Assembly: GCA_017559135.1 (NCBI GenBank)
Contig: JAFYSZ010000006.1
Location: 248,001-312,000, forward strand
DNA length: 64,000 nt
From: Bacteroidales bacterium
GTDB lineage: Bacteria > Bacteroidota > Bacteroidia > Bacteroidales > P3
Direction: 5' to 3'
A program made the position numbers and the translations under genes. Below, piece after piece: positions 23,931 through 59,828 of this stretch. The notes beneath the pieces were generated by a model, which saw only the letters and a program-made list of their open reading frames with translations, made no database searches and was not told where the DNA came from. The number at the start of each line of letters is the position of its first letter. Within the stretch, counting starts at the first letter, position 1.

Positions 23931-24016
23931 CAAAAAAAATACATAATGACAAATTATTTCCATTCACATCACAAAAACAATCAAAATAATAAATTAAATA
24001 AACCAAGTATTTTTTG

Positions 24017-24024
24017 TATCTTTG
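24017..24024 (+). promoter_or_regulatory. TAnnTTTG -7 element of the winged-helix gene
   Basis: TATCTTTG, 27 bases before the ATG at 24052. Confidence 0.6.
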
Positions 24025-24051: not shown

Positions 24052-24474
24052 ATGAAAAAATCAAGCAAAACCTACACCGTAATAGATTGGGAAGAATTGA
24101 GAAACATAAAATTTTATGGAGATTATTACGTAGAAACAAATCCTATGAAGGAAAAAATACACCGAAACCTTACCTCAACCGATCTGTTTATCATATTTTA
24201 CATAAAAGGCTTTGGAGAAAAAGGATATTATGGCTCACAAAGATCAATAGCAGAATTACTTGGAATAACTCCCGAACAAGTTAATAGAAGTATGAAAATG
24301 CTTTTAAAAGTAGTTAATATATCTAATGATGAACCATTATTCATTAAAGACGAAGAAGCAATATATTACAATCCGAAATTTCTATATCGAAAAGATGGAA
24401 AGAAATTAGATTGTTCAGACTTTATTTCTGATAAATACAAAAGAAAGAAAAAAAACGAGAATATTGACTATTAG
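24052..24474 (+). CDS. Small helix-turn-helix DNA-binding protein beside an iteron-like array
   Basis: A 140-residue basic protein. Residues about 44-85 (NLTSTDLFIIFYIKGF, then GSQRSIAELLGITPEQVNRS) form a winged-helix-like domain, with SIAELLGITPEQVNRSMKML as the helix-turn-helix. The C-terminus is Lys-rich. It resembles the single winged-helix domains of replication initiators and phage or plasmid regulators, but is far shorter than a full Rep_3 initiator. Five 22-bp dyad repeats begin over its stop codon and continue downstream, which suggests the protein may bind them. Its role is not known. Confidence 0.75.
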   Translation: MKKSSKTYTVIDWEELRNIKFYGDYYVETNPMKEKIHRNLTSTDLFIIFYIKGFGEKGYYGSQRSIAELLGITPEQVNRSMKMLLKVVNISNDEPLFIKDEEAIYYNPKFLYRKDGKKLDCSDFISDKYKRKKKNENIDY

Positions 24475-24565
24475 TCAATCAAATGTTGATAAATCATCAA
24501 TCAAGTATAGACAATCCGTCAAGAAAATATTGATAAATCGTTAATCAAAAATTGATAAAATGTCA
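24463..24565. repeat. Five iteron-like 22-bp repeats with dyad symmetry
   Basis: Dyads of the form TTGAY-N5-RTCAA start at 24463, 24485, 24507, 24529 and 24551, exactly 22 bases apart. The first (TTGACTATTAGTCAA) is a perfect palindrome overlapping the stop codon of the helix-turn-helix gene. Units 3 and 4 each carry a mismatch in one arm. The array is followed by about 130 bases of very AT-rich DNA. Confidence 0.85.
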
Positions 24566-24703
24566 ATGTATATATAAATAATAATAAATAGATAGAAGTA
24601 AGAATAATAAAGAATAGCAAAAACTTTAAAAAGTGCAAGAAATAATTTTTTAATTCATAGTTTTAGCAAAATATTATTATGGTCTTGCATTACAATACAA
24701 AGA

Positions 24704-24752
24704 AAAACGCTCGTAAGTCTTTGAAATATTTTGACAAACGAGCGTTTTATTT
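24704..24752. terminator. Stem-loop downstream of the iteron-like region
   Basis: Perfect 11-bp stem AAAACGCTCGT/ACGAGCGTTTT (24704-24714 with 24738-24748), loop of 23 bases, then TTTAT-type sequence. Probable terminator for the helix-turn-helix transcript. Confidence 0.6.
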
Positions 24753-24772
24753 GTTTATAATAATAAAATTAT

Positions 24773-24794: not shown

Positions 24795-25115
24795 ATGATG
24801 ATTACTATGAATAGCATCACTCAAAACCTAATTATTCCTTCTATTCAGAAGTTTTTTTCCACTCAACCAATAAGTAAGGCTTGGTTATTTGGCTCTTATT
24901 CTCGTGGAGAAGAGACTGAGCAGAGTGATATAGACATTCTTGTTTCTTTTGATAAGGACGCTAAAATCAGTCTTTTTAAATACGCTGACATAATCTGTCA
25001 ATTAGAAAACATACTCAATCATAAAGTTGATTTAGTTGAAGAAGATTCTCTATTACCTTTTGCAAACGAAATCGCAAATAAAGATAAGATTTTGATATAT
25101 GAGAGAGACTGTTAA
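24795..25115 (+). CDS. MNT-type nucleotidyltransferase (antitoxin of a HEPN/MNT pair)
   Basis: 106 residues with the minimal nucleotidyltransferase motif WLFGSYSRGEETEQSDIDILVSFD: Gly-Ser, then Asp-x-Asp. In HEPN/MNT toxin-antitoxin systems the MNT protein neutralises the HEPN RNase, in known cases by adding AMP to it. The start may be 24795 or a nearby ATG at 24798 or 24807. The HEPN gene that should follow is present only as a broken remnant overlapping the last 17 bases. Confidence 0.88.
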   Translation: MMITMNSITQNLIIPSIQKFFSTQPISKAWLFGSYSRGEETEQSDIDILVSFDKDAKISLFKYADIICQLENILNHKVDLVEEDSLLPFANEIANKDKILIYERDC

Positions 25116-25215
25116 AGATAAAGGCAGAATAGAACACATGTTGTTTGCAATAAATAACGTATAAGAGTTTACGACAAATATAAGTGCAGAGGAATTTGAG
25201 CAAAGTAAGAAATAA
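25099..25215 (+). pseudogene. Remnant of a HEPN (DUF86-like) toxin gene
   Basis: An ATG at 25099 overlaps the MNT gene end and opens a frame reading MRETVKDKGRIEHMLFAINN. It meets a TAA at 25162-25164, where the family normally continues with aromatic or Glu residues. The same frame continues with EFTTNISAEEFEQSKK and stops again at 25213-25215. This is the first third of a DUF86-type HEPN protein; the RxxxxH active-site region is missing. I infer the toxin is dead and the antitoxin an orphan. Confidence 0.7.
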
Positions 25216-25238
25216 TAGAATAAAACAAAGAAATAAAA

Positions 25239-25287
25239 AAATAAAGCAAAGAAATAATTTTTTAATTCTTTGCTTTATTTTTTTTAT
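25239..25287. terminator. Bidirectional terminator between HEPN remnant and hydG
   Basis: Perfect 15-bp stem (25239-25253 with 25266-25280) with T tracts on both strands. The left arm lies in an AT-rich block whose CAAAGAAATA cores are 21 bases apart (25226 and 25247). Confidence 0.85.
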
Positions 25288-25302
25288 TTAAAGACTTATT
25301 TT

Positions 25303-26709
25303 TTAGAAGTAAATATCTCTTTCTCCATTTTCTATTTTGCAAAGATTATCTTCAATTTTTGCAATTAGTTCTTTCTTCTCTACTTCGGCAAACATTGATT
25401 TTATCAACTCTATTCCTTTCATTTTGGTTTCTGCTGTTGCGAAATCTTCAAGGTATTCTCTGAAAGTGAACATTGCATTAGGTAAACAGAATTGTTTTAT
25501 AAGTCCTGGTTTTGCTAAGTCCATAAAATCGCCACCGACTCTGTGTTTTCTGTAACAGCCTGTGCAGAACGATGGAATGTAACCTCCGTCTATGAGTGAG
25601 GAAATTACTTCTTCTAATGTTCTGTGGTCGCCTGTTGAGAATTGTGTACCTGTTCCTTCCTCTTCGTGAGCGTATGAGCCAGGATTTGTCTTGCTTGCTG
25701 CTGAAATTTGGCTAACTCCGTATTCTATTAACTCGTTTCGCATTTTGTCGTTTTCTCTTGTGGAAAGGATTATGCCGGTATATGGTAATGCAATACGGAT
25801 TATGGCTACAAGTTTCTTGAAATCGTCATCGCTTACAGGGTTTGGAATATTTTCTGCGGTTGGTGCTCCGATTGCAGGCTCCATTCTTGGTACTGAAACG
25901 GTGTGTGGTCCACAGCCATAGCACTCTTCAAGGTGTTTTGCGTGTTCCATCATTGCTAAAACTTCAAATCTGTAATCTGTAAGTCCGAATAATGCTCCGA
26001 TTCCTACATCATCTACTCCGCCTTCCATTGCTCTGTCCATTACTGTAAGACGATACAAATAGTCTGCCTTAGGTGTGCCTGCTGGGTGGAAGTCTTTGTA
26101 TTTTATTTCATCGTATGTTTCTTGGAAACAAACGTATGTTCCTATTTTTTCTGCTTTTAGTCTTGCAAATTCTTCAACTTCCATTGGTGCAAGTTCTACA
26201 TTGATTCTTCTAATGTAGTCTTTGCCTCCTCTTTCTTTTACTCCGTAGGTTGTGCGTATTGCTTCAACCATATAATCTGTACCATTCTTGTTGTTTTCTC
26301 CGCAAATCAACAACGCTCTCTTGTGTCCTTGTTTCAAAAGTGCTGATGTTTCTTCTGCAATTTCTTGCATTGTGAGGATTTTTCTTTTGATTAGTTTGTT
26401 GTCTCTTCTAAAAGAACAGTAAGTACAGTTGTTTACGCAAATATTTCCTGTGTAGATTGGAGCGAAAAGTACTAAGCGTTTTCCGTAAATGGCTTCTTTT
26501 ACTGTTTTTGCAGTCTCCATTATCTTGTGAATAGTGTCTGCATCTTTTACTCTCAATAAACAGGCTACGTCTTCAAGGTCTAAACCTTTTAATTTTAGGG
26601 CTTTGTTTAAGATTTCATTAACCTGAGTGGTTGTAGGCGTTGCACCTTCTATCAATTCATAGAGTTTGTCTCTATTTATGAAGTTTGTGTTACGTTTTTC
26701 TATATTCAT
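25303..26709 (-). CDS. hydG: [FeFe]-hydrogenase maturation radical SAM enzyme HydG
   Basis: HydG cleaves tyrosine to build the CO- and CN-bearing iron synthon of the [FeFe]-hydrogenase H-cluster. 468 residues, normal length. The radical SAM cluster is CVNNCTYC (Cys91, 95, 98), and the C-terminal auxiliary cluster region is FCTGCYRKHRVGGDFMDLA with a later FC. It follows a small TM1266-type gene by 5 bases. HydE, HydF and the hydrogenase are not in this window. Confidence 0.96.
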   Translation of the reverse strand: MNIEKRNTNFINRDKLYELIEGATPTTTQVNEILNKALKLKGLDLEDVACLLRVKDADTIHKIMETAKTVKEAIYGKRLVLFAPIYTGNICVNNCTYCSFRRDNKLIKRKILTMQEIAEETSALLKQGHKRALLICGENNKNGTDYMVEAIRTTYGVKERGGKDYIRRINVELAPMEVEEFARLKAEKIGTYVCFQETYDEIKYKDFHPAGTPKADYLYRLTVMDRAMEGGVDDVGIGALFGLTDYRFEVLAMMEHAKHLEECYGCGPHTVSVPRMEPAIGAPTAENIPNPVSDDDFKKLVAIIRIALPYTGIILSTRENDKMRNELIEYGVSQISAASKTNPGSYAHEEEGTGTQFSTGDHRTLEEVISSLIDGGYIPSFCTGCYRKHRVGGDFMDLAKPGLIKQFCLPNAMFTFREYLEDFATAETKMKGIELIKSMFAEVEKKELIAKIEDNLCKIENGERDIYF

Positions 26710-32697: not shown

Positions 32698-32930
32698 AGT
32701 TTGTACAATAAAGAGAAGATAAATTAGTTTCCCCACCACTTAACGCCAAATGCGTGCGATATTTTCGGCAAAGAAAATCTTAGTCCGAAATTTTGAAAAT
32801 ATAAGCCCTTAACTAAAAGCCACTAAATCAAAGACTTAACTCTTTAAGACTTGATTTGCTCAATTTTTTCTATGATTTAGTGCGACTTTTTCTTAGTTTT
32901 TCTTCATTTTTTATCGTGTTTTAGCAAATT

Positions 32931-33045
32931 TTCATCGGACCAAAAAAAAATTTCATCGGATCAAAAATTTTTTTCATCGGACCAAAATTTTTTTTGATCC
33001 GATCTCAATAAATTTTGCTCCGATTTGAGTGAATTTTGCTCCGAT
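32931..33045. repeat. Mirror array of six 21-bp units
   Basis: CATCGG cores at 32933, 32954 and 32975 (each followed by ACC or ATC and an A/T run) are 21 bases apart. The reverse-complement cores CCGAT at 32999, 33020 and 33041 are also 21 bases apart. Three units thus point one way and three the other, giving a large imperfect palindrome centred near 32988. Confidence 0.85.
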
Positions 33046-33249
33046 TTTTGCTTAATTTTCCTCAGACTTTTCAAAACCCTTGCGAAGAAAAATTTCGTAA
33101 CAATAAATTTAATTTTCACAGCCTCGGAATGAAAGATTTTTTTCTCGGGTTTAAACTTTTTCTAAACCGATTTTGTTAGTTTAGCGAGGATTGAAACAAA
33201 ACTAATCCTTCGTTTAAAAAAAAGTATTATTAAATTAAATTTAAGAGTT

Positions 33250-58670: not shown

Positions 58671-59828
58671 AGATTTTATATCCGAAAGAAACCATCTTGT
58701 TTTTCGTTTTATCTTCTCTAATGTTGGTTCTCCGACAAATTCGTTTGCTAATTTGTGAAATTCCGTTTCGTTAATTTTTTCAAAAAATTCTTCTCTTTTT
58801 GGGTGGGGTTTTGCACTTTTTATAAGGGCTGTATTAGTTGCTAAAATATTTCTTAGTTTTGTTTCTCTAAAACAAAGAGATAATTTTTTAAAACAAAGAG
58901 TTATTTTTTTATTATAAAGAACTACTGCACTCACTCCTTTGTTGTCATCAATTTCTTGGTGAAAGCGATCAATCCCCCAATAGTCTGCAAGGCTTACGTC
59001 TGCTTTTGAAGTAAAATTCTTTGCAGGGCAGTGGTGGCAGGAGCGTCTTAAAAAGAGGTTTTGCAGAAATCCTCTCATATATATGTTGTCGTGAAGACTT
59101 TCTTTTAGAATGGTTTTGTCTTTTCCTTCAATTTTTAAATTAAATACTCTCCACGATTTGTCTTTGTTGCGAAATGATATGTTTTTTATGTCTTTTAGAG
59201 AAATATTCTTTCTTTTGCATACTTCTTCTAAGTATTTTTTCCAAACAAGTGGTGAAGTTACTCCGTGGCATACTACTTCTACTGCAATGAGATTGTCGTA
59301 TTCTTTTCCAAGATATAGTTTTAGTCCTAAAACTTGGCAAGGTGTTCCGCTAAAAAGTACTAAACGATTTTCTATAAGGTGGTTTTTTACTTTTTTGTAG
59401 CAATCTCTCATATCGGATTGAAGATATTTTGAGCCAAGAAAGGGTAGGAGTTCTTCTTTTGTTTGTGCGAAGTCGTGAATTAAATGAAAATTTTCATCAA
59501 ATCTTGCTCCGCAAACCACGCCTCCTTGTTCTAATACCATATTTGCAAGGGAAATAAAAATTCCTCCTGAAGATGATAGTTTTCTTTCTTCTTCCGAGTT
59601 GTTTTTTGCGGCGTATGCTATTGGTTCTATTTCGTTTTCTCTTTTTGGTGCAAGAATAGGGCAGACTTTTTCGCATAATCCGCATTCAATACAATTGTGT
59701 TTTGAAAGTCTTACTTGTAAAAATCCTTCTTTATCTTCTTTTAGTTCTAAGCATTGCTTAGGGCAAATGTTTACACAAGCACTACAACCACAACAATCTT
59801 CTTGTGATACTCTATTTATGATACACAT
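58644..59828 (-). CDS. Iron-sulfur protein of the F420-hydrogenase beta subunit-like family (polysaccharide cluster type)
   Basis: 394 residues. Two N-terminal 4Fe-4S motifs, CCGCSACVNICP and CIECGLCEKVCP, then the FrhB-like N- and C-terminal domains (SSGGIFISLANMVLEQGGVVCGARFD, VLFSGTPCQVLGLKLYL, VCHGVTSPLVWKKYLEEV, ADVSLADYWGI). Such proteins commonly sit with flippases and polysaccharide pyruvyl transferases in exopolysaccharide loci. It starts 2 bases after the flippase stop. Near the C-terminus it contains a heptad duplication, KKITLCF/KKLSLCF, encoded by a 21-bp DNA repeat. Confidence 0.88.
   Translation of the reverse strand: MCIINRVSQEDCCGCSACVNICPKQCLELKEDKEGFLQVRLSKHNCIECGLCEKVCPILAPKRENEIEPIAYAAKNNSEEERKLSSSGGIFISLANMVLEQGGVVCGARFDENFHLIHDFAQTKEELLPFLGSKYLQSDMRDCYKKVKNHLIENRLVLFSGTPCQVLGLKLYLGKEYDNLIAVEVVCHGVTSPLVWKKYLEEVCKRKNISLKDIKNISFRNKDKSWRVFNLKIEGKDKTILKESLHDNIYMRGFLQNLFLRRSCHHCPAKNFTSKADVSLADYWGIDRFHQEIDDNKGVSAVVLYNKKITLCFKKLSLCFRETKLRNILATNTALIKSAKPHPKREEFFEKINETEFHKLANEFVGEPTLEKIKRKTRWFLSDIKSKILKKRGF
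58869..58910. repeat. Two 21-bp repeat units inside a coding sequence
   Basis: AAAACAAAGAGATAATTTTTT at 58869 and AAAACAAAGAGTTATTTTTTT at 58890, 21 bases apart. Same type as the intergenic units at 51877-51939. On the minus strand they encode the heptads KKITLCF and KKLSLCF. Confidence 0.75.

Follow-up and report, generated by a model that had tools for sequence, protein, structure and literature searches.

The winged-helix gene, dyad array and A+T-rich tract

The DNA analyzed here is a stretch of 64,000 nucleotides, hereafter called the window, from a Bacteroidales genome of 2.04 Mb (G000). It carries a small winged-helix gene that ends in the first of five regularly spaced dyads, and the dyads are followed by very A+T-rich DNA. 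The features of this locus are listed by window position.

24010 to 24024, + strand: Bacteroidota-type promoter of the 140-aa gene, recognized by eye, with the -7 element TATCTTTG at about 24017 to 24024
24052 to 24474, + strand: winged-helix open reading frame, ATG to TAG, 140 aa; proposed origin-binding initiator
24464 to 24478, + strand: dyad 1, TTGACTATTAGTCAA, exact TTGAY-N5-RTCAA, overlapping the stop codon of the 140-aa gene
24486 to 24500, + strand: dyad 2, TTGATAAATCATCAA, exact TTGAY-N5-RTCAA
24508 to 24522, + strand: dyad 3, TAGACAATCCGTCAA, one mismatch (TAGAC...GTCAA)
24530 to 24544, + strand: dyad 4, TTGATAAATCGTTAA, one mismatch (TTGAT...GTTAA)
24552 to 24566, + strand: dyad 5, TTGATAAAATGTCAA, exact TTGAY-N5-RTCAA
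24567 to 24703, + strand: A+T-rich tract beginning TGTATATATAAATAATAATAAATAGATAG, 137 bp, 82% A+T; proposed unwinding element
24704 to 24748 (noted also as 24690 to 24762), + strand: GC-rich hairpin AAAACGCTCGT...ACGAGCGTTTT, right boundary of the module; possible terminator or REP-like repeat

The five 15-bp dyads have a 5-5-5 geometry and follow one another at exact 22-bp steps from 24464 to 24566. A first-pass annotation of this DNA had reported the 22-base array with coordinates that were one base early and had given all five units the form TTGAY-N5-RTCAA, which is exact in the units at 24464, 24486 and 24552, but has one mismatch in each of those at 24508 and 24530. It correctly placed the first dyad over the stop codon of the 140-residue gene, and the AT-rich DNA after the array is also as it described. 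In a blind scan for dyad arrays of 20–23 bp, this array was the top-scoring one of the 64 kb (75.1 bits, five units), compared with a best array of 45.3 bits in simulated 64-kb sequences (n = 40). As an array at the 3′ end of a gene, it has a p of 0.0007 against 1,365 control windows. Strict dyads occur at 34 sites genome-wide, of which 7 are in the two arrays and ∼20 are expected from composition; their number elsewhere in the genome is near this expectation.

The window as a whole is 67% A+T, compared with the 82% of the tract. For lengths of 60, 100 and 130 nt, the stability minimum of the whole window starts at 24556, 24565 and 24550, respectively, so that each such stretch contains the final bases of the array. 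Stretches that start at 24570, and so lie entirely within the tract, are in the lowest 0.1% of window positions by stability.

In sequence, the protein resembles known initiators only marginally. Pfam matches are to HTH_Crp_2 and HTH_36 and are weak, there is no Pfam match to Rep_3 or RepA_N, and the PHROG match is to phrog_8102, annotated as "replication initiation protein," at a marginal E of 0.01. An AF2 model has a wHTH fold (pLDDT 79.7). The top PDB ranks in Foldseek are mostly winged-helix proteins of iteron Rep type (RepE54-type), with weak E values of 0.017–0.05, and VIA-align gives a Z of 7.8 for the DnaD N-terminal domain and of ∼6 for RepA_N domains. The VIA-align scores are tied with those of many winged-helix regulators, and thus the structural evidence is compatible with an initiator but not decisive. 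PADLOC returned no defence-system match for the protein, and a defence system was rejected as a candidate.

The first-pass annotation had also offered a self-regulating operator array. There are no binding sites near the gene's own promoter, where the best score is −3.5 compared with 11 to 17 within the array. Simple autoregulation is therefore disfavored, and an operator at the gene's own promoter was rejected.

Downstream from the array, the GC-rich hairpin has dozens of intergenic copies in G000 and in three related genomes (G003, G004 and G005); the consensus terminator scan did not call the window copy at 24704–24748. An intact MNT nucleotidyltransferase gene follows at 24795–25115 (MntA-like, 55.5 bits, below the cut-off of 60), and the HEPN-like frame after it stops at 21 codons (region 24795–25200). 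This bears out the earlier description of a decayed toxin–antitoxin pair, both genes of which are intact at another locus in G003 (L076). The region around the module is mosaic and includes this decayed pair. Synteny of the left flank breaks at ∼23953–23960 in G003 and G004 and at ∼23940 in G001 and G002, beyond which the DNA is unrelated to the window. No ortholog of the module was found at the matching position in the relatives compared, nor was a clean empty site; the right flank is found elsewhere. The vicinity has no DnaA box and the cumulative GC skew has no turn here, so the locus is not the regular chromosomal origin (oriC).

Paralogs, complete cassettes and gene-less arrays

Among 393 genomes searched across the order, the protein is restricted to its own genus at E ≤ 1e-5; another genus of the same family contributes a weaker relative, L009 (G057). 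Genome-contig scans yielded no relative. Neither did tblastn of plasmids and phages or IMG/VR scans, and a known plasmid, phage or viral origin was rejected. The window genome contains four clear paralogs of the gene.

G000 C1:63611: L002, 41% identity
G000 C7:190: L003
G000 C1:34785: L004
G000 C1:190222: L005/L017

Members from the genus in other genomes are L007/L022 and L014 (G003), L008, L016/L021 and L049 (G004), and L050 (G005). Of these, L008 is a pseudogene, and its array is broken. Two initiators have marginal matches of their own, L005 to phrog_345 ("replication initiation O-like," E = 0.0068) and L016 to PF04492 (Phage_rep_O, E = 0.063).

Three loci, L017 (G000), L021 (G004) and L050 (G005), share the order small HTH gene, winged-helix gene, dyad array, A+T tract, primase/helicase gene and HU-HIG gene. 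The primase/helicase is of phage type (phrog_239, 7.9e-38; DnaB_C, 1.1e-11), and the HU-like gene after it matches HU-HIG at 1.8e-22. The L050 locus repeats the window anatomy, with five AGGAA-N5-TTCCT-type dyads at 22 bp from the stop codon and the A+T tract next. A primase/helicase gene also adjoins the winged-helix gene at L049, where the latter is duplicated, and at L022, where a weaker array lies upstream of the gene, reversed, beside a tRNA. The ORF lists around the L017, L021 and L022 cassettes show no integrase, att sites or packaging interference genes. The L017 and L021 cassettes adjoin DUF1016-like and Fic genes, and L017 also restriction genes, a setting that recalls a defence island.

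The first-pass annotation had proposed an iteron replicon. Modules directly upstream of primase/helicase genes in G000, G004 and G005, with array and tract between the genes or at their end, support its reading of initiator, iterons and A+T tract as replicon parts. The usual plasmid type is not supported, given the inverted repeats and the lack of a plasmid, phage or viral match and of a Rep_3 or RepA_N Pfam match.

Geometry is constant across the window, L002, L017, L021 and L050, all of which have 15-bp 5-5-5 dyads at steps of 21 or 22 bp, while the half-site pairs change: TTGAY/RTCAA in the window, TTAAC/GTTAA in L002, CTCCA/TGGAG in L017, GGTAG/ATACC in L021 and AGGAA/TTCCT in L050. Arrays at the 3′ end beat the 1,365 control windows for the window gene, L002, L004, L003, L021, L050 and L049 (p = 0.0007–0.008). 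The L017 array falls outside the interval of this test because it begins 82 nt before the stop codon, with its dyads inside the coding sequence; it is the best array of its 20 kb. In L003 and L004, the array is degenerate. The A+T tract is on the same side of every well-defined array and, in complete copies, comes before the primase/helicase gene. The least stable 60 nt lie within or abut the A+T tract in six of the seven loci tested besides the window.

Units of array and A+T tract without an initiator gene are also present. There are eight in G000, plus a degenerate one at C16, and others occur in relatives. The window array and tract (24461–24653) align at 75% with the gene-less C20:49870–50069 of the same genome. 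The other units in G000 are L004-type (C12:63867, C17:10216, C23:2618 and C6:19828, the last L003-like) or cassette-type (C25:48320, C14:23530 and C13:280, with the degenerate copy at C16). These G000 copies came from searches that used gene-linked arrays as queries, which by itself accounts for part of their matching specificity. Gene-less arrays in G003 carry other dyads (CTGCA/TGCAG and GTCTA/TAGAC). At G004:C25, fragments of winged-helix and primase genes flank an array, which is an intermediate of decay, and L116 is a half-deleted cassette. By the first-pass annotation's own criterion, wide occurrence of the repeat without the gene would speak against its proposal. Arrays lacking the gene do occur, but they are complete and bring an A+T tract of their own, which suggests origin units scattered in the genome and is no argument against an origin.

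Invariant columns among four cassette-type arrays comprise 25 of 30 half-site positions, compared with 3 of 12 in linkers and 7 of 15 in centers (P = 0.0004). Comparison of the window with C20 gives 85% identity for half-sites plus linkers and 56% for centers (P = 0.005); in this pair the linkers equal the half-sites in conservation, and half-sites compared with all other array positions do not differ significantly (P = 0.16). The simplest reading of these small counts is that selection on binding sites may explain the conservation of half-sites. A blind scan of 400 kb (∼20% of the genome) found repeat arrays, including three-unit phased repeats at L117:2063, L135:7079 and L123:10921 (G000), none of which has an immediate A+T tract, and solo origins are thus not very dense.

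Other repeats were also seen. A second dispersed intergenic repeat, at 25206–25304 and 58864–58920 of the window, has CAAAGAAATAATTTTTTAA / TTTCTATGA dyads at ∼21-nt steps. It has dozens of copies in G000, G003 and G004, the exact 18-mer is absent from G001, G002 and G005, and it often adjoins gene-less arrays. At 32900–33060 the window has 21-nt TTTTCATCGGACCAAAAAA-type repeats and, after them, the inverse (TTTGATCCGATC, TTTTGCTCCGATTT); a similar unit is at L118:12987.

Known replication systems and alternative readings

In phage lambda, dimers of the O protein bind the inverted-repeat iterons of ori-lambda, an A+T tract opens, and the origin is part of the transcription unit of the initiator gene (PMC5043065, PMC7466680). 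The modules described here resemble this system in having a winged-helix initiator with phased inverted-repeat iterons (window, L002, L017, L021 and L050), an A+T tract after the iterons, at which the window's stability minimum starts where the array ends, and an origin in or at the initiator gene, as the window's dyad 1 on the stop codon and the L017 dyads inside the gene illustrate. Unlike lambda O, the initiators are only ∼90–140 aa and have no clear C-terminal helicase-recruiting domain, the partner is a primase/helicase fusion with an HU-like protein, and neither phage structural genes nor an integrase is seen nearby. A helicase or helicase-loading neighbor is present at L017, L021, L050, L022 and L049 and absent at the window copy. 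The window locus may work like a complete lambdoid replicon, but for want of this neighbor it is not classed as one.

A second comparison is with the PLE satellite of Vibrio cholerae, which has a RepA_N initiator and semipalindromic iterons, varies in initiator–origin specificity between copies, and depends on a helper phage for replication (PMC8263062). Shared with PLE is a chromosomal module of initiator and semipalindromic iterons whose specificity differs between copies; its conserved RepA C-terminal domain, ∼30-bp repeats, and island with integrase and att sites are not seen here. In iteron plasmids (RepE, P1 RepA, Rep_3), monomers bind direct repeats (PMC5043065). These plasmids likewise combine phased repeats with a neighboring A+T-rich unwinding tract, and the fold similarity is weak. 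In contrast to the dyads here, their repeats are direct, and their initiators are larger.

We favor the reading that the locus is a replication-origin module of phage lambda type, composed of a winged-helix initiator, its own inverted-repeat iterons and an unwinding tract, and assign it a probability of roughly 0.64. It draws on direct analysis of the anatomy, the paralog and cassette context, the constant geometry with changing sequence, the melting minimum, and the conservation of half-sites in gene-less copies. Counting against it are the protein's marginal likeness to known initiators, a fold that fits many winged-helix regulators just as well, the want of a helicase, primase or HU gene at the window copy, the degenerate arrays of L003 and L004, and the reversed upstream array of L022. 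A chromosomally integrated plasmid replicon of Rep_3 or RepA_N type would share the 22-bp spacing, the Foldseek matches to RepE54-type proteins, and the structural likeness to RepA_N domains and the DnaD N-terminal domain (Z 6–7.8). Its repeats should, however, be direct rather than inverted, the protein is far shorter than Rep and lacks the Pfam matches, 72,556 plasmids hold no match, and the relatives pair with a phage-type primase/helicase, all of which make this origin very improbable. Viewed as RNA, each unit has inverted 5-bp arms around a 5-nt loop and lies inside the gene's transcript, and the repeats might act as hairpins. That they do so is hardly credible, because folding is not significant (z −1.65), no Rfam family matches, the C20 array has C-A mismatched arms although the half-site is intact, and the paralog sites change sequence yet keep 21/22-nt helical phasing.

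A transcription factor that binds the downstream and gene-less arrays, regulating neighboring genes or organizing the chromosome, would fit a fold that is as close to Fur/MarR/Crp-type regulators as to initiators. It would also fit gene-less arrays that keep their half-sites at many intergenic sites, including the one at C20 ∼100 bp upstream of a secreted-protein gene. We consider such an operator or enhancer array unlikely: the gene's own promoter has no site, strict dyads elsewhere remain near the number expected from composition, and a plain operator leaves unexplained the same-side A+T tract that stands before primase/helicase in complete copies. The module could instead be a dead relic of an old integrated replicon that has lost its primase/helicase and is now functionless. 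This shares its origin with the favored reading and differs on present function. A replicon remnant, which the first-pass annotation had named, is possible, and the missing ortholog in relatives, the L008 pseudogene, the half-deleted L116 cassette, and the mosaic region with its decayed MNT/HEPN pair speak for it. However, the reading frame is intact with its own promoter, four intact orphans persist in one genome, array and melting tract are still the best of the 64 kb, and half-sites are better conserved than centers, so that we consider a functionless relic less likely than not.

A probable lambda-type module with orphan and gene-less copies

Within the lambda-type reading, the window copy is most likely an orphan initiator–origin module in a genus-restricted family that also has complete cassettes and gene-less units. 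The ORF list has no primase, helicase or HU gene beside it, which makes it an orphan, and initiation there would need help in trans. Intact orphan initiators in G000 number four, and the TATCTTTG motif also precedes the L002 orphan gene. A tree of nine initiators neither supports nor excludes the grouping of orphans as one clade.

From this organization we infer binding, melting, helicase loading and any present function of the module. Initiator dimers, as the dyad symmetry suggests, would bind the five sites on one helix face, given that 22 bp is about two turns. The nucleoprotein complex would then open the adjacent A+T tract, and transcription from the gene's promoter through the array may aid this opening, as in lambda. 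In complete copies, the primase/helicase and the HU-like protein would take over the opened origin, presumably through helicase loading. The orphan might use a helicase supplied in trans, either host DnaB or that of the cassette at G000:C1:190555. It might instead now only bind and compete, for example with other replicons, or it might be a recent relic.

A cloned lambda origin fragment that bears iterons can block replication of the matching phage (a replicative inhibition phenotype), and this exclusion needs oop RNA (PMC3349717). Orphan or gene-less copies might serve for such exclusion, and no oop-RNA-like element is shown here. A broader and rather unlikely proposal is that the genus has a dispersed system of small chromosomal origins, made up of complete cassettes, orphan pairs, and solo origins that have no gene but whose sites selection maintains. 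Initiators would act in trans at several places in the chromosome, either firing extra origins or soaking up the initiators of matching mobile replicons as a form of replication immunity.

The proposed lambda-type module differs from known ones by its orphan and gene-less units in a genus-restricted family. If the favored reading is right, the window holds a very small initiator–origin pair, of 140 codons and ∼240 bp, and natural paralogs of different site specificity in one genome would make good subjects for studying how winged-helix initiators come to recognize different sites. Gene-less arrays with kept half-sites raise the question of whether a chromosome maintains solo phage-type origins, be it for extra firing, incompatibility or decoy defence.
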